Positions 26,349 through 39,893 of a DNA stretch of 42,063 nt are shown piece after piece. Both the position numbers and the translations under genes were made by a program. The notes beneath the pieces are model-generated. The model ran no database searches. It was not told the origin of the DNA and saw only the letters and a list, made by a program, of their open reading frames with translations. The stretch is taken from the NCBI GenBank assembly GCA_947627285.1, contig CANQVL010000022.1:1-42063 (forward strand), given 5' to 3'. The stretch is from an uncultured Oscillospiraceae bacterium (GTDB taxonomy: Bacteria > Bacillota > Clostridia > Oscillospirales > Oscillospiraceae). Within the stretch, counting starts at the first letter, position 1; the number at the start of each line of letters is the position of its first letter.

Positions 26349-27869
26349 TCACTGAGGATCTCTCTCCTCGATGAGGGGCAGGTAGTGGAGGTATTTGCTC
26401 TCCAAAATACACTTGGCGTCGGTGCTGTCCTGGGCCTTTTTTACCTCGGAGGTGGAATACTGCACCGCCGCGATGGTGCCGGCTCCGGCGACGCACCCGC
26501 CGGGACAGCCCATGCCCTCTAAGAGGTAGCCGTTGTATTTGCCCGCCTTTGCCAATGTCAGCATCTTCTTGCACTCCGCAAGGCCGTTGGCGTGGGCGAC
26601 CTTTATCTCCCTGTCCGGGGCGAGCCTCGCGGCGGCGTTCACCACCGCCTGCGCCACGCCTCCGGCGACGGCGAAGCCGCGCCCGTCGGCGGTGGCCTCG
26701 TTCATGGGATCGGAGGGCAGCTCGGCGGGGTCGATCTCCTTTGCCTCGAACATACCCAGGACCTCCTCGAAGGTGAGCACGAAGTCCACGTCGGAGCGTA
26801 TCTCCTTGCGGCTCGCCTCCAGCTTTTTCGCGGCGCAGGGCCCTATGAAGCAGACCTTACAGCCGGGGTGGTCCTTCTTTATCATACGCCCGGTGAGCAC
26901 CATGGGCGTCAGCGCCATGGATATGTTGTCCGCCAGGGTGGGGAAGAGCTTCTTTGCCATCATCGTCCACGCCGGACAGCAGGAGGTCGCCATGAATGGC
27001 TTTTCCTCCGGCACCTCCCGCAGGAAGTCCTGTGCCTCCTGGAGGGTGCAGATGTCCGCGCCGATGGATACCTCCACAAGGTCGGTAAAGCCCAGGGCTT
27101 TGAAGGCGGGGCGCATCTTGTCGTATGTCATGTGCGTGCCGAACTGCCCGCAGAAGGCGGGGGCGATGGCGGCGTAGACGGGCGTGCCGCTCTTTATCGC
27201 CATTATCGTCTGGTATATCTGTCCCTTGTCGGCTATGGCGGCGAAGGGGCAGGAGACGAGGCACTGCCCGCAGGAGACGCACTTTGTCTGGTCGATCTCC
27301 GCCCTGCCGTAGGAGTCTGTCTTTATGGCTCCCATGCCGCAGACGGCGGCGCAGGGGCGCTCCTGCTTGACTATGGCGTGGTAGGAGCAGGCGTCCACGC
27401 ACCTGCCGCACTTGACGCACAGGTGCTCGTCGATGACGCTCCTGCCGTTCACCATGGAAATCGCCTTTCTTGGGCAGACCTCAAGGCATGGGTGCTCAAA
27501 GCAGCCCTGGCAGGCGTCCGTGACCGCCACGCGCTTCTCCGGGCACTTGTTGCAGGCGAATTTTATCACGTTTATCAGGGGAGGGGTGTAGTATTTCTCC
27601 GCGATGGCGCTCTCGTCAACGCCCTCGTTGAGCTCCACCTGCTCCGCCACGTTGCGTATCGGAAGCCCCATGGCGAGCCTGAGCCGCTCGCCCACTATGG
27701 CGCGCTCCAAAAAAATGCTGTCCCGGTATGTAGCCACCTCGCCGGGGATTATCTTGTAGGGCAGGCGGAGTATCTCCTTTGAGATGTCCGAGCCCTCATA
27801 GGCGGTGCGGGCTATCTCGGTGAATATCCTGTGGCGGATCTTCGTTTTGTTCGACTCAAGTCCTCTCAT
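26349..27869 (-). CDS. Monomeric [FeFe] hydrogenase (group B-like)
   Basis: 506 residues; ATG 7 bp after GAGGAGG, shorter than the longest frame. An N-terminal part with four-Cys groups (ACNKCPEKR, ACQGCFEHPCLEVCP) is followed by two ferredoxin-like clusters (CVKCGRCVDACSYHA and CVSCGQCLVSCPFAA). The H-cluster domain has motif L1 as TSCCPAW, keeping both the proton-relay and cluster-binding Cys. L2 reads GPCAAKKLE (Met of the classical MPC replaced by Gly) and L3 EGMGCPGGCVAGAGT. Gly in L2 fits group B enzymes of gut Clostridia. Catalyses 2H+ + 2e- to H2 or the reverse, probably with ferredoxin. Maturases HydE, HydF and HydG are not in the window. Confidence 0.9.
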   Translation of the reverse strand: MRGLESNKTKIRHRIFTEIARTAYEGSDISKEILRLPYKIIPGEVATYRDSIFLERAIVGERLRLAMGLPIRNVAEQVELNEGVDESAIAEKYYTPPLINVIKFACNKCPEKRVAVTDACQGCFEHPCLEVCPRKAISMVNGRSVIDEHLCVKCGRCVDACSYHAIVKQERPCAAVCGMGAIKTDSYGRAEIDQTKCVSCGQCLVSCPFAAIADKGQIYQTIMAIKSGTPVYAAIAPAFCGQFGTHMTYDKMRPAFKALGFTDLVEVSIGADICTLQEAQDFLREVPEEKPFMATSCCPAWTMMAKKLFPTLADNISMALTPMVLTGRMIKKDHPGCKVCFIGPCAAKKLEASRKEIRSDVDFVLTFEEVLGMFEAKEIDPAELPSDPMNEATADGRGFAVAGGVAQAVVNAAARLAPDREIKVAHANGLAECKKMLTLAKAGKYNGYLLEGMGCPGGCVAGAGTIAAVQYSTSEVKKAQDSTDAKCILESKYLHYLPLIEERDPQ

Positions 27870-27928
27870 GACACGCCTCCTCAATGTGTAATTTGCCGTT
27901 TCCCACGGCAAAAATATAGGTCAAATCC

Positions 27929-28246: not shown

Positions 28247-28825
28247 ATGGAAAGACAGAGAAGCCTGGGCGAATATAAGGCCATCGACCTTATAATCTTC
28301 GCCGTAATCACAGCCGTAGTTGAGTACCTCACAACAGTCGCCGCCAGGGTCTGGTTCCCGGACCAGATCTACACCGTCTCGCCGGCGGCGATAATCGCCT
28401 CGGTGGTCTATATGCGCTGGGGCGCCTGGGGCGGGATACACGCCGCCCTCTCCGGATTTATCTTCTGCCTGTTTTCCGGCGCCGCGGGAGAACAGTACGT
28501 TATATACTGCGTGGGAAACCTCTTTTCGATGCTCTCCCTGATACTGCTCTTTGGGGTGGGCAAGGAGAAGGTGAGGACGGGACAGTTCCTCCCGTTCGCG
28601 TTTCCCCTTCTCGTGCAGGCGCTCATGCACGGCGGAAGGGCGCTGACGGCTATGCTTTTCGGCGAGCCGCCGGCGGTGGCGGCAGGCTTCTTCCTAACTG
28701 ACAGCCTGTCATACCTATTTACCCTTGTGATCGCGTGGATCGTCAGAAGGCTGGATGGCGTCTACGAGGATCAAAAACATTACCTTCTCCGCCTCCAGGC
28801 GGAAAAGGAGAAAAAAGGAGGTTAA
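28247..28825 (+). CDS. ECF-S-like membrane protein heading the ABC operon
   Basis: 192 residues, about six hydrophobic helices. Start by AAGGGG 6 bp before ATG; longer frames lack a site. The layout (AIDLIIFAVITAVVEYL, then SPAAIIASVVYMRWG, GIHAALSGFIFCLFSG) resembles ECF transporter S components, small substrate-binding membrane proteins. The C-terminus is basic and cytoplasmic. Followed after 2 bp by a permease gene, so co-translated. A substrate subunit or accessory to the LplB/LplC-type transporter is my inference; no ECF T or A genes are nearby. Confidence 0.7.
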   Translation: MERQRSLGEYKAIDLIIFAVITAVVEYLTTVAARVWFPDQIYTVSPAAIIASVVYMRWGAWGGIHAALSGFIFCLFSGAAGEQYVIYCVGNLFSMLSLILLFGVGKEKVRTGQFLPFAFPLLVQALMHGGRALTAMLFGEPPAVAAGFFLTDSLSYLFTLVIAWIVRRLDGVYEDQKHYLLRLQAEKEKKGG

Positions 28826-28827
28826 AA

Positions 28828-29886
28828 ATGAAAGTTAGGGCAGCGGATTTCCTCGTATACGACCAGGAAACGGGCGTATACAGAGAAGATCCGGAACAAG
28901 TCGTCCGGGACGATGTGGAAAAGCACTACTGGCTCCACGTTGTCAGGACGGTGGCTAAGGACTGGCGCCTCTACCTGATGCTGGTCCCCATGCTCCTGGT
29001 CTTCCTGTTCTGGCGCTACTTCCCGATGTATGAGCTCCTGAGCTGCTTCAAGGTCTACGACGGCGTTCTGCCGGTGTCAAAGCAGCTTTTCTCCGGATTT
29101 TCATACTTCAAGCAGCTGCTTGTGGGCGGGACACAGCTTTCGACGGACTTCTGGAGAGCCATGAGGAACACCTTTATCCTCAGCTTCTACGGCCTGTGCT
29201 TCGGCTTCCCCATGCCGATCATTTTGGCTTTGTTCTTCAACGAGGTCAGGTCAAACGCCGCCAGGAGCGTCTTCCAGGTCCTCACCTACCTTCCCAAGTT
29301 CATGTCCACCGTTATCATGACCTCTCTGGTGACCATGCTTGTGAAGCAGGGGTCCTCCATCGCCGGTATGGGCGTTATCAGCCGCGCGCTCGTGGGGCTG
29401 AAGCTCATCTCAACGGAGACCGGAAACGCGGGACTTCTCAACAACCCATCCTTCTTCCGTTCAATTTACCAGATCAGCGGCATCTGGGAGGGCGCGGGCT
29501 ATGACAGCATAGTGTTCTTCGCGGCTATCATCGCCATCTCTCCCACCAGCTATGAGGCCGCGCAGATCGACGGCGCAAACAAGTGGGCGCAGATGCGCTA
29601 CGTGGTCATCCCCAGCATACTCTCCACCGTGGTCATCATGCTCATAACCCGTATCGGCTCCCTGCTGAACGTGGGTTATGAAAAGGTATTGCTCCTTTAC
29701 AACACCGACACCTATGTGACCGCCGACGTGGTCTCCACCCTGTCCTACAGGCTGGGAATGCTGGGCTCGCAGACGACACAGGGCATAGCGTCGGCAGCCG
29801 AGATGATGAACAACGTGGTCGGGATGCTGCTGGTCATAGGAGCCAACACCATAGCCCGCAAGGCGTCCAACACGTCGCTCTATTAA
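28828..29886 (+). CDS. Carbohydrate ABC permease, LplB-type
   Basis: 352 residues; ATG 7 bp after AAAGGAGG. A cytoplasmic head of about 45 residues, unusually long and acidic, precedes the first helix (LYLMLVPMLLVFLFW). Five further helices follow. The EAA loop that contacts the ATPase reads SYEAAQIDGANKWAQMRYVVIP. Belongs to the LplB/YteP group of oligosaccharide permeases, which pair with LplC/YtcP and a large lipoprotein, as found next. Brings uronic-acid or other oligosaccharides across the membrane; substrate inferred from the linked GH28. Confidence 0.9.
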   Translation: MKVRAADFLVYDQETGVYREDPEQVVRDDVEKHYWLHVVRTVAKDWRLYLMLVPMLLVFLFWRYFPMYELLSCFKVYDGVLPVSKQLFSGFSYFKQLLVGGTQLSTDFWRAMRNTFILSFYGLCFGFPMPIILALFFNEVRSNAARSVFQVLTYLPKFMSTVIMTSLVTMLVKQGSSIAGMGVISRALVGLKLISTETGNAGLLNNPSFFRSIYQISGIWEGAGYDSIVFFAAIIAISPTSYEAAQIDGANKWAQMRYVVIPSILSTVVIMLITRIGSLLNVGYEKVLLLYNTDTYVTADVVSTLSYRLGMLGSQTTQGIASAAEMMNNVVGMLLVIGANTIARKASNTSLY

Positions 29887-29898
29887 TAGGAGGGTGCC

Positions 29899-30789
29899 AT
29901 GAAAAGAAAGCTTGAAATCACTGAGCTGATCTTCAAAATCATAAGCTACACCCTGCTGACCGTGTTCGCGCTGGCGTGCCTCTATCCCTTCGTCTTCGCC
30001 ATATCCTCCGCCATATCCGGGCGCGAGGCGGTGGAGTACGGCGAGATCGTACTGTTCCCGAAGGGGATACAGTTCCAGGCGTTCTCCCAGATGTTCAACA
30101 ACAATATGTTCTGGAACGCCTACTCCAACACGCTGTTCATCACCCTCTACGGTACGCTCTTCGCGATGTTCACCGCCATTCTTGGCGCTTACGCCCTGTC
30201 GAAGAAGAGGCTCCTCTTCAGGAAGACCTTTAACTTCTTCCTGGTGTTCACCATGTGGTTCTCCGCCGGCGTTGTGCCCCAGTATCTGAACTACATAGCC
30301 ACGAGGACGGTATTCAACGCTGTGGGCATCGTGGACGACAAGTGGCTGGTGGTCATAGCCATGGGCATGGCGGCGATGAACATCATACTTCTGAGGAACG
30401 CCTTCGAGGGAGTCCCCTCCGAGATCGAGGAGGCGGCGATAGTGGACGGCGCCACGGAGATGCAGGTGCTCACCAACGTCTACCTTCCCATGAGCAAGTC
30501 CACCATCGCAACGGTTGCGCTGTTCTTCGCCATCTCCCGCTGGAACGGCTACTTCTGGGCGCGCCAGATGATAAGGAACCAGTACGAGCAGCCCCTTCAG
30601 GTGTTTATCCGCCTGACGCTGGAGCAGTACACGGAGTCTGAGTTCCTCACTTCCTGGAACAGGCCCTACGCCGCGGACTCGGTCATCTACGCGCTGGTGG
30701 TTTGCTCCATAGTCCCCATACTTATAATCTATCCCTTCATCCAGAAATACTTCGCCAAGGGCGTGAACGTCGGCGGCGTCAAGGAGTGA
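29899..30789 (+). CDS. Carbohydrate ABC permease, LplC/YtcP-type
   Basis: 296 residues, starting 12 bp after the partner. Six helices, with the short N-terminal helix typical of this family. The EAA loop is EIEEAAIVDGATEMQVLTNVYLP, and the end PFIQKYFAKGVNVGGVKE is the LplC/MalG-type C-terminus. It forms the heteromeric channel with the LplB-type protein. GGAGG upstream. Separated by a 140-bp intergenic hairpin region from the binding protein gene. Confidence 0.92.
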   Translation: MKRKLEITELIFKIISYTLLTVFALACLYPFVFAISSAISGREAVEYGEIVLFPKGIQFQAFSQMFNNNMFWNAYSNTLFITLYGTLFAMFTAILGAYALSKKRLLFRKTFNFFLVFTMWFSAGVVPQYLNYIATRTVFNAVGIVDDKWLVVIAMGMAAMNIILLRNAFEGVPSEIEEAAIVDGATEMQVLTNVYLPMSKSTIATVALFFAISRWNGYFWARQMIRNQYEQPLQVFIRLTLEQYTESEFLTSWNRPYAADSVIYALVVCSIVPILIIYPFIQKYFAKGVNVGGVKE

Positions 30790-30802
30790 TTTCTGGCGTG
30801 GC

Positions 30803-30855
30803 GGTCGGTCGAGAGCAGAGGCCGGCTGCGTAAGCCGGTCGAGTGTAAACCGACC
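30803..30855 (+). promoter_or_regulatory. Intergenic RNA hairpin between permease and binding-protein genes
   Basis: Outer stem GGTCGGT/ACCGACC (30803-30809 and 30849-30855) around inner GCCGGCT-GCGTA-AGCCGGT; GGTCGAG also occurs twice. No T tract, so probably an mRNA processing or stability element that raises binding-protein output relative to the permeases. Remaining bases to 30929 are A/T-rich and end in a strong AGGAGG. Confidence 0.5.
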
Positions 30856-30929
30856 ACGGAAAAGCCTTTAATTATTTGTGATCCGTCCGGCGTCCGCCGG
30901 AGGAATATAAAAATTTTAGGAGGATCTTT

Positions 30930-33191
30930 ATGAAAAAGTTCAGAGCCATAATCGCTGTTGTGCTCGCTCTCGTGCTTGTGGTCGCGGTAGCCGCGTCCTG
31001 CAACAAGATCGAGATCCCCGACAATAATCAGGGCGATCAGGACAACACTAACACCAACACGAACAACAACAATCAGAACAACAACAACCAGAACGACAAC
31101 CAGAACCAGAACGACAACCAGGGCTCCGGCGACGACGGCAACGGCGGCGCTGAGGCCGACCCCACCGCCATCAACCACGTCTATGAGAACCCCGACCTTC
31201 CCTACGCGGAGGGCACCGAGATCCGCATGGCTGTCGGCTACAACAGCAAGCAGACCGGTCTTCTCTTCGACGCCGATATCGCCGAAGCTGGCGTCACCCT
31301 GGCTGACGGCGTGACCTATCACACCGGCGATTTGAAGCCCACTTGGGTGGAGATGCAGAACCGCCTCCACATCAAGTTCGACGGCTCCATGTACACCGGT
31401 CAGAGCGCGGAGAAAGAGTTCAAAAACTGGGTGAACCAGCTTGGCCTGGTGGACATGGTATCCGGCACCGTCGAGCTCCTCTCCGAGAACGGCGTGGCGG
31501 GCAAGCTCGTGAACATCGGCGAGTACCTGGACAAGATGCCCAACTTCAAGGCGTATCTTGACGCCAACCCCATCGTCCGCATGGCTATCGTCAGCGACAC
31601 CGACACCGGCGCCATCTACGTCAGCCCCTACTTCGACGGCGTGAGCGACATCGAGCGTATGCCCCTTATGCGCGTTGACTGGGTACAGAAGCTTCTTGAC
31701 GGCGAGGGCCCCTTTACCGCTGACGCCTGCGGCACCACCGCCACTCCCGCGTGGACGCCCTACATGCCCACCACCGGCAGCTACACCATCGACGTTGTGA
31801 AGCCCGACGGCTCCGGCGTTGAGCAGGTGACCAAGAACTATGACGCCGCCGGCAACATCATCGAAAAGATGAACGCCGCCGGCTCCATGAGCGGCGTTGA
31901 CGCCGTGAACATGCTCCGCGACTACATAGATACCGCGTACGACAGATATTACGGCGACACCCGTTCCAACCTCTTTATCGGTCAGAACGCCGCCTGGGAC
32001 GCCGACGAGCTGGTGGCGCTCCTGCGCTGCGTGGTCGCCAACGCCCAGACCCTCAACGGCACCGACACTGTGGGCGGCATAGTCTGCCGTGAGAACAACA
32101 ACAACCAGCGCCGCATCGATATGTTCCGCTTTGCCGGCACCCTTCTGGGCGTCCGCGGACTTGAGTCCCGCAAGGATTACCTCTATGTGGGCAGCGACGG
32201 CGCCATGCACGACGCCCGCCTTGAGGTAGACACCTACAAGGCGATGGAGAGGATGAACACCCTTGTCAAGGAGGGGCTCATCGGTGAGGACTTCGTGAAC
32301 AAGGCCGATCCCCAGGTCAAAGACCTGCTTGCCAAGGACTCCGCCTTCATGCACTATGACTACAACCAGACCCAGACCATTTACAACGCCACCGTTCTTG
32401 ACGAGGGCGAGAAGTACATGGCGGTCATGGTCCCCGTTGCCCGTTGGGACGACGGCACCGGCGAGAAGCTCATGCGGTTCACCGAGTCCTGGCGCTCCGT
32501 CAAGACAGACGGCTGGGGCATCTCCGTTGAGGGTATCAACGGCGACCAGGATAAGCTGAACGCCTGCCTCGCACTCATCGACTACGCCTACACCATGGAC
32601 GGCCAGATCCTTCTCTCTTACGGCCCCGACGCATTCGTGAAGATGGCTGACGAGAACCACTATGAGATGTTCGACTTCAACGGCGAGCAGTGGCCCGTCA
32701 TCTCCGACGCCTCCGCCGAGGACCTGTGGGAGTTCACCAACGGCAACTACACCGACTACGCCCGTAAGTACATCGGCTCCACCCTGAGCTTCCTCAAGAG
32801 CCAGTCCTTTGAGTATCAGTGCACTCATGAGGTGGGCAAGGAGGGCGCCGGGTACATCTCCAGGGCCATTGCCCTCGGCACCATCAAGCACCCCGAGAAC
32901 GCCATTACGGATAACCCCTGGTACACCAACGTTCCCACCCTGCTGCCTCTCACCGAGCAGGAGAACTCCCTCGCCAAGAGCTACACCGAGCTCAACGACA
33001 ACTTCAGCCAGAAGAAGGGCGAGGACAACATCCTCATCCAGCAGATCGTTTCCGGCTACACCGATTCCACCCGCACCAGCGCCGAGGCGACGGTTGATAC
33101 CGTTTTGAACGCCTGGAGCGGCAAGCAGTGGCTCAGCATCCAGCAGACCGGCTGGGAGAGGGCCCTGGAGTATTACAACAGCATTAAGTAA
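30930..33191 (+). CDS. Extracellular solute-binding lipoprotein of the ABC system
   Basis: 753 residues, larger than most LplA-type binding proteins (500-560). Signal peptide of KKFRAIIAV then a Leu/Val core, lipobox VAASC with lipidated Cys24. Residues 30-75 are almost only Asn, Gln, Asp, Thr and Gly, a flexible tether from the membrane. The binding domain follows. It has the family's general pattern (VDWVQKLLDG, then WGISVEGINGD, and a C-terminal WLSIQQTGWERALEYY) but I cannot match a closer subfamily. AGGAGG 8 bp upstream. It should deliver the sugar ligand to the LplB/LplC-type permeases just upstream. Confidence 0.88.
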   Translation: MKKFRAIIAVVLALVLVVAVAASCNKIEIPDNNQGDQDNTNTNTNNNNQNNNNQNDNQNQNDNQGSGDDGNGGAEADPTAINHVYENPDLPYAEGTEIRMAVGYNSKQTGLLFDADIAEAGVTLADGVTYHTGDLKPTWVEMQNRLHIKFDGSMYTGQSAEKEFKNWVNQLGLVDMVSGTVELLSENGVAGKLVNIGEYLDKMPNFKAYLDANPIVRMAIVSDTDTGAIYVSPYFDGVSDIERMPLMRVDWVQKLLDGEGPFTADACGTTATPAWTPYMPTTGSYTIDVVKPDGSGVEQVTKNYDAAGNIIEKMNAAGSMSGVDAVNMLRDYIDTAYDRYYGDTRSNLFIGQNAAWDADELVALLRCVVANAQTLNGTDTVGGIVCRENNNNQRRIDMFRFAGTLLGVRGLESRKDYLYVGSDGAMHDARLEVDTYKAMERMNTLVKEGLIGEDFVNKADPQVKDLLAKDSAFMHYDYNQTQTIYNATVLDEGEKYMAVMVPVARWDDGTGEKLMRFTESWRSVKTDGWGISVEGINGDQDKLNACLALIDYAYTMDGQILLSYGPDAFVKMADENHYEMFDFNGEQWPVISDASAEDLWEFTNGNYTDYARKYIGSTLSFLKSQSFEYQCTHEVGKEGAGYISRAIALGTIKHPENAITDNPWYTNVPTLLPLTEQENSLAKSYTELNDNFSQKKGEDNILIQQIVSGYTDSTRTSAEATVDTVLNAWSGKQWLSIQQTGWERALEYYNSIK

Positions 33192-33326
33192 ACCCACCCG
33201 ATTGACCCCACGCGAAATTTTTGAGACGACCCCCGGCGAAAGCTTTGGGGAAGTCAAAACGGATGCGCCGCACATTCCCGGAAGCTCCGGCTCCCGGGGC
33301 GGCGGCATCCCTGAGAGGAGGTCGTC

Positions 33327-33938
33327 ATGTACAAAACTCAGTTAAAAATCCAAAAATTCACCTGTCTGGCGGCTATCATTATCAGCGCGTTGGTGTTCGT
33401 CTACGCGCTGGGGATCATGACAGATATCTATGACAGCCTTTACCAGGCGGTGACCATCAAGACCGAGGCGGGTACGGGCAACAAATACGCCTCCGGCGAG
33501 AAGGTGGGAGGCGCCACCATTTACATGGATATGCAGGACTTCAACCAAAAGCTTCTCATAGGGAGCATTGTGATGATAGTTCTGGGCGCGTTCCTCTTTG
33601 TCACCAATACAAGCACCCGCAGGCGCTACTACATCACAAACTACATCGCCATTGGGCTCTACTCCGTGGTGGGGCTGGCCCTGACGGTTTACAGCCACAT
33701 TCAGATCCAGGCGTTCAGGACGCAGTTCCTCACCACCGTGGATTTTGAGGGGCTGAAGGAGTTTTCGGACATGTGGGGCACGCTGTACACCGAGTCAACA
33801 TTTGCCTTTGACATCCACTATCTGGTGTTCGGGCTGTTGGTGCTGGTCATTGCCGCCCTCATCGCCAATGTGGTGTGGAAGCTGAAGCTCGTGAGCGAGG
33901 AGAAGGCTCTCCTTGCCGGAAAGGGGGCAAAAGCATGA
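33327..33938 (+). CDS. Unassigned four-helix membrane protein
   Basis: 203 residues, AGAGGAGG upstream. Helix 1 FTCLAAIIISALVFVYALGI, then an outside loop of about 45 residues that could contact the binding protein, helix 2 KLLIGSIVMIVLGAFLF, helix 3 YIAIGLYSVVGLALTVYS, another outside loop, and helix 4 YLVFGLLVLVIAALIANVVW. No family recognised. Translationally coupled to the next gene (ATGA overlap) and in one direction with the whole transport operon. Confidence 0.8.
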   Translation: MYKTQLKIQKFTCLAAIIISALVFVYALGIMTDIYDSLYQAVTIKTEAGTGNKYASGEKVGGATIYMDMQDFNQKLLIGSIVMIVLGAFLFVTNTSTRRRYYITNYIAIGLYSVVGLALTVYSHIQIQAFRTQFLTTVDFEGLKEFSDMWGTLYTESTFAFDIHYLVFGLLVLVIAALIANVVWKLKLVSEEKALLAGKGAKA

Positions 33939-34432
33939 GCATGTCCAACGAGGACCGTCTCATCAAAAGAGACAGGATGAGGTACATCAAAAATAAGCCC
34001 TCAGCCAATCTTGCCTACCTTGCCATACTTCTGGACGTCATCTACTTTGTGAGCATCTACCAGTCCGACGTGGAGACCTGGTATTACAGGTGGATAATCG
34101 GCGTTTCCATAGTTTACAACCTGATATTCATGCTGGCGGCGTTTTTGAGCTCCGAGGGCGTGAAGAATTATCAGAAGAATTACACCTACATCGAGCTGGC
34201 GCTGGGAGTTATACAGTTCGTCAGGATATTTATTCTCCCTGTACCCGCCCACAACGCCACGCTCACCGTGGGGGATGTGACCATTCAGGTCATGCACTCG
34301 GCGCAGTTCACGCTGTGCGTGGTGTGCCTCATAGCCTCGGGCGTGTGCCTCATAGCCTCGGGCGTAATAAACTACATCAAGTGCAATGAGCTTGCCGCTC
34401 ATATGAAGACCCTTGAAAACCAGAACGCGTAA
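33935..34432 (+). CDS. Unassigned membrane protein with an internal 7-residue duplication
   Basis: 165 residues. Start at the ATGA overlap with the previous stop, GGGGG upstream. A basic cytoplasmic head (RLIKRDRMRYIKNK) is followed by four helices. The fourth contains a perfect tandem repeat of VCLIASG caused by a 21-bp DNA duplication. Outside loop near residues 100-120 (PVPAHNATLTVGDV). I recognise no family. It lies directly before the first ATPase gene (12 bp), a place where permease or coupling subunits are common. Confidence 0.75.
   Translation: MSMSNEDRLIKRDRMRYIKNKPSANLAYLAILLDVIYFVSIYQSDVETWYYRWIIGVSIVYNLIFMLAAFLSSEGVKNYQKNYTYIELALGVIQFVRIFILPVPAHNATLTVGDVTIQVMHSAQFTLCVVCLIASGVCLIASGVINYIKCNELAAHMKTLENQNA
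34322..34363 (+). repeat. Perfect 21-bp tandem duplication
   Basis: Two identical 21-base units, 34322-34342 and 34343-34363, in frame, adding seven residues (VCLIASG) to the last helix of the membrane protein. No base has diverged, so the event is recent or unstable. Confidence 0.95.
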
Positions 34433-34444
34433 GGAGATGAAGAC

Positions 34445-35518
34445 ATGGCTACGCTGAGCTTACAGCATATCGACAAGATATATGACAACAACGTGCAAGC
34501 CGTCTTTGACTTCAATCTGGACGTAAAGGATGGCGAGCTCATAGTTCTGGTCGGTCCCTCCGGTTGCGGAAAATCCACCACGCTCCGCATGGTGGCAGGG
34601 CTTGAGGACATCTCCAACGGCCACCTTTTCCTGGACGGAAAGGACATCACCCAGACGCCTGCCAAGGACAGGGACATGGCGATGGTCTTCCAGAGCTACG
34701 CCCTGTACGGGCACATGACAATTTATGAGAACATGGCGTTCTCGCTGACTCTCCGCAAGGAGAATCCCAACGTTATCCACAAGAAGGTGCTGGCAGCCGC
34801 CGAGGTCCTGGGACTTACGAGCCAGCTCAATAAAAAGCCCGCGCAGCTCTCCGGCGGACAGCGGCAGCGCGTGGCGATGGGGCGGTCCATCGTCAGGAAC
34901 CCCAAGGTGTTCCTTTTCGACGAGCCCCTCTCGAACCTGGACGCCAAGCTCCGCGGAGCGACGCGGCGCGAGATACTGCTCCTGCACAAGAGGCTCCAGG
35001 CGACCATGCTTTACGTCACCCACGACCAGACCGAGGCGCTGACCCTTGCCGACCGGATCGTGTGTATGTCCATGGGACACGTACAGCAGGTGGGCACGCC
35101 GCTCGAGCTTTACGATTCGCCCAACAACGTGTTCGTGGCGAGCTTCATCGGGCTCCCGCCCATGAACTTCTACGACGTGAAGGTGGTGGGCGGCGAGCTC
35201 CAGGGCAACGGCTTCAAGGTGGCGCTCACCGCCGAGGAGAAGGCGACGCTTGCCGGATACGAGGGCAAGGAGATCACCCTGGGCGTCCGCCCGGAGAACT
35301 TCACCGAGGGCAGCGACATCAAGGTGACGGTCACCAACAACGAAAACCTTGGAATGAACACCCTGGTTTACGGCTCCGTCGGCAACACGGGCGTGAAGGT
35401 CACCGCCAAGCTCAAGGGGTGGAAAAACTACAAGGTGGGGGACACCGCGTCCTTCTCCGTCACGAGAAAGCACTTCTTCGACAAGGAGACCACCAACGCC
35501 ATAAGGGGAGGTAAGTGA
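34445..35518 (+). CDS. Sugar ABC ATPase 1 (UgpC/MsmK/MalK-type)
   Basis: 357 residues. Walker A GPSGCGKST (37-45), Q-loop VFQSYALYGHMT, signature LSGGQRQR (135-142), Walker B VFLFDEPLSNLD with Glu160, switch His in YVTHDQTEA. A C-terminal TOBE/OB regulatory domain follows, shorter than in E. coli MalK. It powers import through the LplB/LplC-type channel. A second, different ATPase is encoded 3.3 kb downstream in the same operon. Start by AAGGAG upstream. Differs from ATPase 2 in KLRGATRREILLLHKRLQATMLY, so the copies are old paralogues. Confidence 0.93.
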   Translation: MATLSLQHIDKIYDNNVQAVFDFNLDVKDGELIVLVGPSGCGKSTTLRMVAGLEDISNGHLFLDGKDITQTPAKDRDMAMVFQSYALYGHMTIYENMAFSLTLRKENPNVIHKKVLAAAEVLGLTSQLNKKPAQLSGGQRQRVAMGRSIVRNPKVFLFDEPLSNLDAKLRGATRREILLLHKRLQATMLYVTHDQTEALTLADRIVCMSMGHVQQVGTPLELYDSPNNVFVASFIGLPPMNFYDVKVVGGELQGNGFKVALTAEEKATLAGYEGKEITLGVRPENFTEGSDIKVTVTNNENLGMNTLVYGSVGNTGVKVTAKLKGWKNYKVGDTASFSVTRKHFFDKETTNAIRGGK

Positions 35519-35520
35519 TC

Positions 35521-36474
35521 ATGACTAACAAGAAGGTTAAGATCGGCTGCATCGTTATGGCAGTGCTGCTTGTCGTCAGTGTCGTGGGACTTTTCCTGCC
35601 CTTCTCGGGACTTCTGGGTATTGACCTGTCCGCCGCGCAGTTCATGCAGTGGGCGGTGCAGGAGTACAGCATAGGCGGACTTTTCGCCGTGCCCATCGTG
35701 TACGTCACCATCGCGGTGCTGGTGCTCATAGCGGCGCTGGCGCTGGCTGTGGCGGGGATCGTCACCGGTAAGGGTGCCCTCCAGAACGTGAGCGGGCTTT
35801 GCGCGCTGGTCCTGGCGGTGGTCATGCTCGTGTGCAGGGGCAGCTTCACGGGCACTGACGGCGTTCTGGCGGGCTTTTGGGTCATATTTGCCGGCGCTCT
35901 GGCATCGTTTGTGTGCCTGTTGCTGTGCAAGATGGACCTGAAGGAGGTCTGCCGCAAGTTCATGGTCTCCATAAAGCGCAGGCCCCAGCTCATACCGCTG
36001 TGCGCCTTCGTGGTGACCTTCATCTTCTACTCTCTGAATCTGACAGCGGTTTCCAACACCACGGCAAAGATCCAGGCCACCGGAATGGGGCTGGCGGGCT
36101 TTGCCACCATGCTCCTGTCGATTTTGAGCATGGTGTGCTGTCTCAACGCCTTCCCGTACCGGAAAAAGCCCAATATCCCCATGGTGGTGCTTCTGTTCGT
36201 CATGGCGGGGATAGTGATATTCTCCGACGTATACTACTCCAACCTTGTGATCAAGGCAATCAACAACAGCCCGGACGCCGCGAAAATGCTGAGGGACACC
36301 CCGTCCATCATAGTGGCATACAATATGCTCCAGACGCACGTGGTGCTCCTTATTGTGAGCGTGGTGCTGACGGTGCTTCTGCCCGTTTACTCAAAGCTTT
36401 TGAAGAAGGTGAAGACCTCCGTTGAGGTCGAGGGCAACGGCGACATGAAGGCCATCGACATTTCGGGCGAATAA
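35521..36474 (+). CDS. Unassigned polytopic membrane protein
   Basis: 317 residues; ATG chosen 9 bp after GGGGAGG, a GTG 6 bp upstream is too close. About eight hydrophobic helices in pairs: VKIGCIVMAVLLVVSVVGLF, IAVLVLIAALALAVAGIV and so on. The middle (FMVSIKRRPQLIPLCAFVVTF) is a basic loop. C-terminus acidic and cytoplasmic. No ATPase, permease EAA loop or transporter motif recognised. Starts 2 bp after ATPase 1, so expressed with it. Perhaps a coupling or accessory membrane subunit. Confidence 0.8.
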   Translation: MTNKKVKIGCIVMAVLLVVSVVGLFLPFSGLLGIDLSAAQFMQWAVQEYSIGGLFAVPIVYVTIAVLVLIAALALAVAGIVTGKGALQNVSGLCALVLAVVMLVCRGSFTGTDGVLAGFWVIFAGALASFVCLLLCKMDLKEVCRKFMVSIKRRPQLIPLCAFVVTFIFYSLNLTAVSNTTAKIQATGMGLAGFATMLLSILSMVCCLNAFPYRKKPNIPMVVLLFVMAGIVIFSDVYYSNLVIKAINNSPDAAKMLRDTPSIIVAYNMLQTHVVLLIVSVVLTVLLPVYSKLLKKVKTSVEVEGNGDMKAIDISGE

Positions 36475-36489
36475 GCTTACGCCGATGTG

Positions 36490-36519
36490 GATCGGGAGGT
36501 ACGTAAGCGCCTCCCGATC
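36490..36519 (+). promoter_or_regulatory. Intergenic hairpin with loop complementary to upstream bases
   Basis: GATCGGGAGG and CCTCCCGATC form a perfect 10-bp stem. The loop contains CGTAAGC (36502-36508), complementary to GCTTACG (36475-36481) just upstream, so a pseudoknot or switch between two folds is possible. It ends 17 bp before the next start codon, near its ribosome site GAGGA. Confidence 0.5.
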
Positions 36520-36536
36520 GGCAAAGAGGAACATCA

Positions 36537-37175
36537 ATGAGCAAAAAGAACAAGAGGAAAGACCCGCACGACGATATACTCAAGCAGGCGGACTACTACA
36601 AGCTTAATACCAAGGCCGTGGACGACCTGGTAAACGCCAACGAGGAAAATTCACCGCCGGTATCGGAGAAGGAGCTGCGGAAGTACCGCTCAGGTCCCAA
36701 GATAAAGCTTGCGGAGTGGGTGGTATTCTGCCTCATAAAGTGGTGGTTCGCCGCGGCGTGCTGCTTCTTCTTCATGTGGGGACTGGGAAATTACGTCGCC
36801 GACCAGCTGGACCTGCTTTTTGTCACGTCCATCGGGCTGGGGATGGTGACGGACATTCTCACCAACAACGCCCTTCGGTTTTTCGAGCGGTCCGATAAAT
36901 CGGCGGATAAGTGGATAATGTGCTCAAAGCGCAAGAGCTTCGCCACCTTCCCGCTGAATATCCTCTACGCGATCGTGCTGATGTTCCTGGTATTCATGAC
37001 GTACAACGTGATAAATTTCGCAATCATCAGGATAGGCAACCTGACAGACGTATTGCCGCTGGGCGTTGAGCCCATAATGTTCGGGCTTTTCTATCTGGGG
37101 TGGGATCTGCTGTTTGTGGCGATGAGGAACACCCTGAAAAACGTCATCAGTGACGCGAGAAAGCCCAGCCATTGA
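36537..37175 (+). CDS. Unassigned membrane protein with charged N-terminus
   Basis: 212 residues, GAGGA 8 bp upstream. The first 65 residues are soluble and highly charged (KKNKRKDPHDDILKQADYY). Four helices follow: WVVFCLIKWWFAAACCFFFMWG, LLFVTSIGLGMVTDILTNN, ILYAIVLMFLVFMTYNVINF and VEPIMFGLFYLGWDLLFVAM. No known domain recognised. It is the fifth small membrane protein of the operon and is followed by the GH28 gene. Confidence 0.8.
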   Translation: MSKKNKRKDPHDDILKQADYYKLNTKAVDDLVNANEENSPPVSEKELRKYRSGPKIKLAEWVVFCLIKWWFAAACCFFFMWGLGNYVADQLDLLFVTSIGLGMVTDILTNNALRFFERSDKSADKWIMCSKRKSFATFPLNILYAIVLMFLVFMTYNVINFAIIRIGNLTDVLPLGVEPIMFGLFYLGWDLLFVAMRNTLKNVISDARKPSH

Positions 37176-37188
37176 GGAACGTGATATT

Positions 37189-38757
37189 ATGATCAAGATC
37201 CTTTACCGCGGCAGCACCTCCGCCTGCTTTGAGCTTCAGGGCACGGCGCCGCACTTCTCCAACGAGGAGTTTGAGGTACTTGTAAACGGCGAGGAGCGCT
37301 GCCGGTCCGCCACCAATGTCTTTTCCCTTTACGGGCTGACGCCCGAGACAAAATACAGCGTGGAGCTGCGGTTCGCCTCCGGCGCGAGCGAGAGCGCGGA
37401 GCTCACGACGGCGGGGGAGACCTGCTGTCTCAGCGTCCGGGATTTCGGCGCGGTGGGCGACGGGGTCCATGAGGACACCGCGTCAATACAGGCGGCGATA
37501 AATATGCTGCCCGAGGGCGGGAGGCTCTACTTCCCCGAGGGGACGTATCTCACGCTCCCGCTGTCGCTGAAAAGCCACGTCACACTGGAGATATCCCGCG
37601 GCGCGGTTATATTGGGCTCCACGGAGAGGGAGAGATATCCCATAATCACCGGCATCGCCCATGACGGCGTAACCGGCGGGGAGATACCCCTCGCCTCCTT
37701 TGAGGGGTTGGAGAGGCCCGCGTACCAGTCGCTTATCCAGGGCGCTTTTTGCGAGGACGTGGCGATCGTGGGACCGGGAGCCATAGACGGGAACGGGCAG
37801 AACGGCGACTGGTGGCAGGGCTTTGACAAATTCCCCGCGGCGCGTCCCAGGGTCCTGTTCCTGAACAGGTGCAAGCACATAACTCTCCACGGGGTCACGG
37901 TGAAGAACGGACCCACATGGCACATACACCCGTTCTTCTCCAAGGATGTCTCCGTTTTGGACTGCAGCGTCACGGCTCCAAAGGACAGCCCCAACACAGA
38001 CGGGTGCAATCCCGAGAGCTGTGACACGGTCAATATCATCGGCTGTAAGTTTTCGGTCGGTGACGACTGTATCGCCATCAAATCCGGCAAGCTGGAGATG
38101 GCCGTCAAGTACAGGGCCCCGGCGGATAAATACACCATCCGCAACTGCCTTATGGAGTTCGGTCACGGCGCCGTGACACTGGGCAGCGAGGCCTCCGGCG
38201 GCGTCACCAATCTTTCCGTCACCCAGTGCCTCTTCCGAGCCACCGACAGGGGACTTCGCATAAAGTCCCGCAGGGGCAGGGGGAAGGACAGCGTCATAAA
38301 CAACGTCCTCTTTGACAACATCAGGATGGACCGGGTTTTGACGCCGATAGTCATCAACCTGTGGTACAACTGCTGTGACCCGGACGCTCACGACGAGTAC
38401 GTCTGGAGCAGGGAGAAGCTGCCCGTTGACGACAGGACGCCCCACATGGGCTCCTTTGCCTTCCGCAACATGGAGTGTACCGGCGCCGAGGTCGCCGCCT
38501 GCTACATAGACGGGCTGACGGAATGTCCCATTGAGAGCGTAGAGCTGGAGAACATAAGCGTCTCCTTCTCCCCCGACGCCAGGCCCGGCAAGCCCGCAAT
38601 GCAGGAGTTCGCTCCCGACAGGTGCAGGCTGGGGCTGTATCTCGACAATGTGAGGAGAATAAGCGTTAAAAACGTGAGGCTCCGGGGGGTGGAGGGCGAG
38701 AAGCTCATAGCCGCCCACTGCGACAGCGTCGAGACAGAGGGATTTGATGAGGATTGA
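37189..38757 (+). CDS. Glycoside hydrolase family 28 (polygalacturonase family), cytoplasmic
   Basis: 522 residues; start MIKILYRGST after GAGGA. An N-terminal small beta domain (to about 80) is followed by a right-handed beta-helix. GH28 signature residues are present: NTDG (269-272), GDDC with the catalytic Asp pair (292-293), GHG (325-327) and RIK (357-359), with DFGAVGDGVHEDTASIQAAIN at the start of the helix. Family members hydrolyse alpha-1,4-galacturonan or rhamnogalacturonan, or release terminal galacturonate. No signal peptide, so it would act on sugar already imported. Linked to the ABC system. Confidence 0.92.
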   Translation: MIKILYRGSTSACFELQGTAPHFSNEEFEVLVNGEERCRSATNVFSLYGLTPETKYSVELRFASGASESAELTTAGETCCLSVRDFGAVGDGVHEDTASIQAAINMLPEGGRLYFPEGTYLTLPLSLKSHVTLEISRGAVILGSTERERYPIITGIAHDGVTGGEIPLASFEGLERPAYQSLIQGAFCEDVAIVGPGAIDGNGQNGDWWQGFDKFPAARPRVLFLNRCKHITLHGVTVKNGPTWHIHPFFSKDVSVLDCSVTAPKDSPNTDGCNPESCDTVNIIGCKFSVGDDCIAIKSGKLEMAVKYRAPADKYTIRNCLMEFGHGAVTLGSEASGGVTNLSVTQCLFRATDRGLRIKSRRGRGKDSVINNVLFDNIRMDRVLTPIVINLWYNCCDPDAHDEYVWSREKLPVDDRTPHMGSFAFRNMECTGAEVAACYIDGLTECPIESVELENISVSFSPDARPGKPAMQEFAPDRCRLGLYLDNVRRISVKNVRLRGVEGEKLIAAHCDSVETEGFDED

Positions 38758-38813
38758 GTCAAACCATTGTTTCCTGACCCCGCGGAAAAAATCATGTGTA
38801 AGGAGACAAATCT

Positions 38814-39893
38814 ATGTCATACTTGAGCCTTAAAAATATCAACAAGATCTACCCCAACGGTTTCCACGCGGTCCACGACTTCAATCTTGACATTGAAAAG
38901 GGCGAGTTTATCGTCTTCGTCGGACCCTCCGGCTGCGGAAAGTCCACCACGCTCCGCATGGTCGCCGGACTTGAGGACATATCCAGCGGTGAGTTCCTCA
39001 TAAACGGCAGGCGCGCCAACGAGCTGGGACCCAGGGAGCGGGAGGTGGCGATGGTCTTCCAGAGCTACGCCCTCTACCCGCAGATGACGGTCTTTGACAA
39101 CATCGCCTTCGGACTCACCCTCCAGGGCGTGGACGAGGACGTCATCGAGCAGAAGGTCAAGGACACCGCGAGGATACTGGGACTGACGGACTACCTTGAC
39201 CGGTATCCCAGGGCTCTCTCCGGCGGTCAGAGACAGCGTGTCGCCATAGGCCGCGCCATCATCCGCAAGGTGGGCGTGTTCCTCATGGACGAGCCGCTTT
39301 CCAACCTGGACGCCAAGCAGCGCGTGACCATGCGCTCGGAGATCGCCCAGATCCACCGGAACACGGGAGCCACCACCATTTACGTCACCCACGACCAGAC
39401 CGAGGCCATGACCCTTGCCGACAGGATAGTTGTCATGAAGGACGGCTATGTCCAGCAGGTGGGCACGCCATATGACCTCTACTATGAGCCGGTGAACGTG
39501 TTCGTAGCCGGGTTCATCGGCGAGCCGCCCATGAACTTCGTCCGTGGCACCCTCAAGGGCGGAAAGCTCGCCTTCGGAAAGAATGAGCTTGACGTGACAA
39601 AGAAGCTGGGCGACAAGGCGAAGAAGTACGAGGGCAAGGAGATCGTATTCGGCTTCCGTCCAGAGTCCATAGTCCTTGGCAAGCAGGACAACGCCTACGT
39701 TGTCCGAGCCGACGTGGAGCTCACGGAGATGCTGGGAGACAACACAAACGTCTACATCACCGCCGGTGAGGACAAGGCCATTTTGAAGGTCGATCCCCAC
39801 GACACCCCCGCCGTGGATTCCGCCATCGACTTTTCCATCCCCCTGAGCGAGGTGTACATCTTCGACGGGGAGACGGAAAGGGTTATAAAATAA
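38814..39893 (+). CDS. Sugar ABC ATPase 2 (UgpC/MsmK/MalK-type)
   Basis: 359 residues. Walker A GPSGCGKST (37-45), VFQSYALYPQMT, signature LSGGQRQR, Walker B VFLMDEPLSNLDAKQR and switch His in YVTHDQTEAMT, then a TOBE/OB C-terminus (FGFRPESIVLG). AAGGAG upstream. It is more canonical than ATPase 1 (YALYPQMTVFDNIAFGL). Both could serve the single LplB/LplC pair, as a heterodimer or alternatively, or this one may energise other sugar permeases as MsmK does. Last gene of the operon. Confidence 0.93.
   Translation: MSYLSLKNINKIYPNGFHAVHDFNLDIEKGEFIVFVGPSGCGKSTTLRMVAGLEDISSGEFLINGRRANELGPREREVAMVFQSYALYPQMTVFDNIAFGLTLQGVDEDVIEQKVKDTARILGLTDYLDRYPRALSGGQRQRVAIGRAIIRKVGVFLMDEPLSNLDAKQRVTMRSEIAQIHRNTGATTIYVTHDQTEAMTLADRIVVMKDGYVQQVGTPYDLYYEPVNVFVAGFIGEPPMNFVRGTLKGGKLAFGKNELDVTKKLGDKAKKYEGKEIVFGFRPESIVLGKQDNAYVVRADVELTEMLGDNTNVYITAGEDKAILKVDPHDTPAVDSAIDFSIPLSEVYIFDGETERVIK

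Follow-up and report, generated by a model that had tools for sequence, protein, structure and literature searches.

The window analysed in this study is a stretch of 42,063 nucleotides from an uncultured Oscillospiraceae bacterium (assembly GCA_947627285.1, contig CANQVL010000022.1), and an operon for a putative carbohydrate importer of the ATP-binding cassette (ABC) type was investigated within it. The operon contains eleven genes, all on the same strand, at positions 28247 to 39893, which encode two permeases of the LplB and LplC types, a binding lipoprotein (SBP), two ATPases (ATP1 and ATP2), an enzyme of the GH28 family and five small membrane proteins (M1 to M5), as shown in Table 1. The gene set, its common direction and the positions given in a preliminary description of this DNA were all borne out by the open reading frames (ORFs) and their translations. 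The reading frames of M2 and M3 share 4 bases, a gap of 12 bases separates the end of M3 from ATP1, and M4 starts at the end of ATP1.

Table 1. Genes and features of the importer operon, in positions of the window (TM, transmembrane; ECF, energy-coupling factor).
Feature	Position	Strand	Remark
M1	28247..28825	+	192-aa membrane protein, predicted ECF S-component fold, conserved C-terminal tail
LplB-type permease	28828..29886	+	closest solved relative AlgM1
LplB N-terminal extension	28828..28956	+	43 residues, RDDxEK-type motif
LplC-type permease	29899..30789	+	Pfam BPD_transp_1
SBP	30930..33191	+	753-aa binding lipoprotein, predicted AlgQ1/AlgQ2 fold
M2	33327..33938	+	203 aa, four-TM, two long loops; no curated family
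M3	33935..34432	+	165 aa, four-TM; no curated family
ATP1	34445..35518	+	UgpC/MsmK-type ATPase, core ATPase of the system
M4, long form	35515 (GTG) or 35521 (ATG)..36474	+	317 aa from ATG; no curated family
M5	36537..37175	+	212-aa membrane protein; no curated family
GH28	37189..38757	+	polygalacturonase family; accessory
ATP2	38814..39893	+	further UgpC/MsmK-type ATPase; accessory; found in clade I and in G142

The Pfam family BPD_transp_1 was matched above cut-off by both LplB and LplC, and GH28 by the enzyme, in which no signal peptide was seen by eye. The LplB profile matched AlgM1 (4tqu_M) at 1.6e-74 over profile positions 39–350. With the UgpC model of NCBIfam (cut-off 432), ATP2 scored 451 bits and ATP1 430.1 bits, 2 bits below the cut-off. 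The SBP has no Pfam or NCBIfam match above the curated cut-off, its N-terminus is lipobox-like as judged by eye, and its predicted structure adopts the AlgQ1/AlgQ2 fold, with ~190 folded residues beyond those aligning to AlgQ2 (structure prediction covered M1 and SBP).

The five small membrane proteins had been described as not assignable to any family, and this held when the window proteins were searched against Pfam and NCBIfam, as none of M1 to M5 reached a curated cut-off. Aligned members gave scattered weak Pfam matches (cut-offs not tabulated), and among the 25 of 35 families listed in the scans of M2 and M4 members the best for M2 were CD20-like (6.3e-6, 2/39 members) and Anthrone_oxy (1.5e-5, 4/39), while TgpA_N was the most widely shared (5/39); MreD was matched by one of 42 M5 members (7.8e-4). 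Profile searches of the PDB returned no credible match, the best being 0.057 for M4 and 0.38 for M5, with none for M2 and M3, and no relatives of M2 or M5 were found on viral contigs. Judged by hydropathy and charge, M2, M3 and the conserved portion of M4 seem to have four helices each, with both ends inside, and the two long loops of M2 were placed outside by charge. In M5, a crude hydropathy scan gave two strong helices, four were read by eye, and a segment of ~57 residues precedes the first helix. The conserved part of M4 is its C-terminal half (~180 aa, four TM helices); the long form, with ~139 additional N-terminal residues (window 35515-36474, compared with loci L017-L031), occurs in the window and in 5 of 14 further loci of the genus that contain M4, the remainder having the short form, which consists of the C-terminal half. 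The additional residues may form a second domain, acquired or lost as the genus diverged. At one locus (L019:8304-9407, the same place as L040:9386-10489) M2 and M3 form a single frame of 367 residues, which would be either an error of the assembly or a fusion that exists in nature. M2 to M5 were also considered as mutual duplicates, which was rejected since the hhalign probability was ≤6.5% in the five pairs compared (M2/M3, M2/M4, M3/M4, M2/M5 and M4/M5).

The gene order is conserved among relatives. Of 25 genomes of the genus, counting the window's own, 16 contain M2, against none of 15 genomes from other families of the order, and 15 same-genus loci show the order M1-LplB-LplC-SBP-M2-M3-ATP1-M4-M5-(GH28)-ATP2 as far as their contigs reach. 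In distant same-genus members M2 retains 38–54% identity against 84–95% for ATP1. A scan with the M3 profile of one genome per species (84,980 species) revealed 265 relatives. The 80 best loci were retained for analysis, and all 80 keep the gene order, each as far as its contig reaches. Among testable loci, i.e., those with the neighbouring genes present on the contig, the gene was found in 58/58 for M1, 60/60 for LplB, 65/65 for LplC, 71/71 for SBP, 78/78 for M2, 79/79 for M3, 77/77 for ATP1, 77/77 for M4 and 73/73 for M5, with ATP2 (69/70) as the only exception; the loci were selected by M3, so these counts are conditional on it. In each of the 77 loci where this could be tested, ATP1 is flanked by M3 and M4. 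A few loci have a gene split over two frames (SBP in L079; LplB in L056 and L081). The relatives are metagenome-assembled genomes (MAGs) or 'uncultured' entries labelled Oscillospiraceae, Lachnospiraceae, Erysipelotrichaceae/Solobacterium, Christensenellaceae, Gemmiger, Subdoligranulum and others, and many of the MAGs come from animal guts, by record title.

Searches independent of M3 were also made. With the LplB profile, 26 of 245 genomes of the order gave matches at 1e-60, five of them above 600 bits, and M3 is present in exactly these five. In a family sample of 150 genomes, seven contain an LplB above 680 bits and six of the seven carry M3; the seventh (G345, 65% complete) is cut inside SBP at a contig end, and M5 is also unmatched there. 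The SBP profile, scored on two candidates per genome so that distant ones may be missed, found four matches in 391 genomes of the class, all four with M genes. Of 34 genus genomes, 22 contain LplB and 23 contain M2 or M5; 21 have both and 10 have neither, and LplB and the M genes are thus jointly present or absent in 31. Two ordinary LplBC-SBP operons in the window's own genome (L150 and L151) have neither M genes nor such an ATPase adjoining. In the LplB tree, 14 members of the system split from the ordinary LplB sequences with a support of 0.998 (17 ordinary rows, reduced to 16 as L124 and L153 are the same gene).

All genes compared are under purifying selection, with NG86 dN/dS (the ratio of non-synonymous to synonymous rates) of 0–0.38 in three pairwise comparisons and 0.05–0.29 for M1 to M5. 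The M genes might have been ORF artefacts or hitch-hiking passengers, as the lack of a family match above cut-off would allow; such an explanation has next to no chance of being right and is refuted in substance by this selection and by conservation across orders and deep clades, and chance neighbours or ORF artefacts were ruled out by the kept order and purifying selection. Gene–gene correlations of distance matrices (0.24–0.80) reflect mostly shared descent and were unused as evidence of contact. Synonymous divergence (dS) to close relatives is ~0.2 in SBP (30930-33191) and 0.9–1.4 in M5 (36537-37175), an unevenness along the operon that looks as if parts had been exchanged by recombination.

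A profile search for M5 in another order matched 9 of 200 genomes, and the nine loci (L160, L175-L182) present LplB-LplC-SBP-M2-M3-ATP-M4-M5 in order, with M4 of L182 recognised by place only. Together with G333:C4 (L144), they form four groups, clades I to IV. Clade I is the window's type and includes L175 and L176; clades II (G585, G901, G889 and G937) and III (G864 and G847) contain M1 and GH28, with ATP2 not in the fetched stretch; and clade IV (L144 and L182) has neither M1, GH28 nor ATP2 in the stretch. Downstream of the clade IV importers lie genes of DUF4962 and heparinase II/III types, one of which in L144 also has an alginate-lyase match (L144:4810-16638 and L182:1746-12724 span importer and enzymes), and the clade IV substrate is probably another polyuronide. 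In a phylum sample of 398 genomes, M5 was found in the window's genome only, and the system is therefore sparse.

M1 had been guessed to resemble an ECF S-component, which was corroborated by fold comparison: its predicted fold is that of a six-helix S-component, with 126–179 of its 192 residues aligned, and the 23 best rows comprised S-components, MreD and NikM/CbiM-type proteins, as we take some of these entries to be. No sequence-level match to ECF S-components was found in the Pfam and PDB profile searches, and an initial conclusion that M1 has no credible PDB relative (profile search best 0.016) was overturned by the fold comparison. The C-terminal tail holds the invariant residues G171, E174, Q176 and R182. 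An AxxxA motif in helix 1 is expected of ECF S-components, and in helix 1 of M1 alanine occupies position 19 in 33 of 44 rows and position 23 in 25 of 44. M1 lies directly upstream of LplB in all 58 testable loci, and the LplB extension with its RDDxEK-type motif accompanies it in 59 of 59 scored clade I LplB sequences with M1 (one partial sequence was dropped). EcfT/EcfA genes were not seen in the operon (ORF list, Pfam and NCBIfam), and one EcfT-family (CbiQ) gene is located elsewhere in the same genome. M1 could be an ordinary group-II S-component that uses the housekeeping EcfT/EcfA to import a monomer or vitamin, with its place beside LplB a regulatory convenience; we regard this as somewhat unlikely, given the constant position upstream of LplB and the accompanying extension.

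GH28 and ATP2 are accessory and not core. GH28 occurs in 57 of the 80 loci, before, inside or after the block, and one same-genus locus (L024) lacks it and keeps all five M genes. Two ATPases per permease pair, presented earlier as a defining trait, did not prove general, as ATP2 was not seen in the stretches of clades II to IV; ATP2 as one half of an obligate heterodimeric ATPase was rejected as a general rule because the operons of these clades show one ATPase of the UgpC kind. A third UgpC-type ATPase (L183, G000:C5:56617-57609), with 55% identity to ATP2, stands beside two other permease genes, and either it or ATP2 could be a shared ATPase for ATPase-less Lpl operons.

The closest known systems are the alginate importer of Sphingomonas sp. 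A1, AlgQ2/AlgM1-AlgM2/AlgS-AlgS (PDB 4tqu), and its Streptobacillus relative Smon0123/Smon0121-Smon0122/Smon0120. Compared with the alginate importer, the window operon adds five membrane proteins and the LplB N-terminal extension, and its SBP has 753 aa against about 490 aa. ECF S-components such as ThiT, RibU, PanT and FolT have the predicted fold in common with M1, but M1 adjoins a Type I permease in an operon without an EcfT/EcfA gene and lacks a sequence-level match to them. The Bacillus Lpl/Yte/Yes rhamnogalacturonan importers also have LplB/LplC-type permeases in a pectin context, near one small membrane protein, YesL (DUF624), as against four to five in the window operon; DUF624 (PF04854) was absent from the Pfam matches listed, with E of at most 0.1, for members of M5 (42), M1 (42) and M3 (30). 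Shared (multitask) MsmK/MalK-like ATPases are of the same UgpC/MsmK type as ATP1 and ATP2, whereas ATP1 is operon-encoded with a fixed position in all four clades seen. A literature search of titles and abstract openings, with most subscription journals outside it, found nothing describing this operon.

The system is best read as a Type I importer of the AlgM1M2S/AlgQ (Lpl) lineage with constant accessory membrane proteins. A new type of carbohydrate importer had been proposed; the extra constant partners stand, and a variant of this lineage describes them better. It is probably an ABC importer devoted to oligogalacturonides, which are themselves probably unsaturated, with M2 to M5 as accessory subunits and M1 docking on LplB, the substrate being suggested by the neighbouring genes and the AlgQ fold. 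The AlgQ-fold lipoprotein would capture the acidic oligosaccharide outside the cell, the LplB/LplC pair would move it with power from ATP1, and cytoplasmic GH28 and GH88/105 enzymes would degrade it to galacturonate and DHU, which would then enter the KduI/SDR/UxaC pathway. M2 to M5 most likely pack around the permease, where the outside loops of M2 would point towards the binding protein and cytoplasmic tails towards the ATPase, and M1 most likely docks on the LplB extension. M2 to M5 were assigned to the importer rather than to catabolism for two reasons: they remain with LplB/LplC, SBP and ATPase where the enzymes vary, and ATP1 lies between M3 and M4 in every testable locus. Gene content, gene order, co-occurrence, the folds predicted for M1 and SBP and the single clade of LplB are direct results; a physical association of the M proteins with the importer and their contribution to it are inferred.

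Several observations weigh against such a subunit role. Conserved operon membership is no proof of a complex; the role proposed here draws on genomics, and sequence by itself does not choose between subunits, assembly factors and a separate complex. In its description (PMC5717064), AlgM1M2SS of Sphingomonas consists of four subunits plus AlgQ2, without M-like proteins. The mean pairwise distance is 0.42–0.49 for M2 to M5 against 0.14–0.17 for permeases and ATPase; the faster change could suit peripheral over buried subunits. In clade IV, M5 reached 43–93 bits and M2 and M3 only 12–24 bits, while M4 had no profile match and was assigned by place and weak alignment. M1 is not in the clade IV stretches and is therefore not needed by every such permease, so the suggestion that the additional proteins may be obligatory was not supported for M1; M2 to M5 are constant partners of the permease/SBP/ATPase set. 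In one genome of the order (G142), LplB scored 467 bits and M3 was unmatched by the narrow profile, yet M1 and M5 are present, M1 on the LplB contig, which ends beyond LplC, and M5 on a separate contig. Three genus genomes are discordant: G1343 has LplB only, running off its contig, and the other two have an M gene only. In G013 the contig is 6.2 kb long and stops in SBP; in G011, M5 lies ~1 kb from the contig start and M2 is unmatched, and its position suggests a contig-end cause. Related genomes with the permease/SBP set and without the small proteins would have refuted the preliminary description; in searches seeded on LplB or SBP, M genes were missing only from two fragmentary genomes with a cut LplB contig (G345 and G1343), and G142 is a partial exception.

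M2 to M5 may instead constitute a membrane complex of their own, for example a sensor, a scaffold or an organiser of the cell surface, which is expressed together with the importer without belonging to it. The absence of kinship in the five pairs and their faster variation relative to the permeases would suit this, as would the inferred nature of their interaction with the importer, but the M genes are interleaved with those of SBP and ATPase (ATP1 included), they are retained in clade IV despite its different enzymes, and their presence follows that of LplB across the genus, which makes a separate complex unlikely. Dedicated biogenesis or stability factors for the permease, absent from the working importer, would leave the same genomic evidence, and such a role could be filled by small membrane proteins of helical type. 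It would be unusual for one permease pair to have four distinct factors of this kind, all of them constant, and the Pfam matches listed include no conspicuous assembly-factor family; we consider this explanation improbable. The accessory-subunit reading has a stronger form, which we advance tentatively and with slightly more doubt than belief, in which LplB, LplC, ATP1 and SBP would make an obligate membrane super-complex with four apparently unrelated four-TM proteins (M2 to M5) and, in clades I to III, with an ECF-S-fold subunit on the LplB extension. If true, this would be an importer class with some 16–22 extra TM helices for acidic oligosaccharides and, to our knowledge, the first instance of a Type I permease that works with a protein of S-component fold.

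Elsewhere in the window, recombinase-like proteins are encoded near both contig ends (3-635, 710-2164 and 41146-42063), which resemble large serine recombinases, and just ahead of the operon, on the opposite strand, lies a gene for a 520-aa iron-sulfur protein (26349-27911, minus strand) resembling an [FeFe] hydrogenase.

Type I sugar importers are a textbook minimal machine of a binding protein, two permeases and two ATPases, and here a single lineage retains, despite deep divergence, four to five additional membrane proteins whose order does not change. The four or five small membrane proteins that travel with the pump suggest that this importer may be larger than the textbook machine. If the M proteins are subunits, the system would be an exception to the composition rule of Type I importers, five unannotated protein families would gain a role, and a dedicated importer could be tested for its part in pectin-fragment uptake by gut Bacillota. 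In addition, it is a natural test case for the reuse of the ECF S-fold with another type of transporter.
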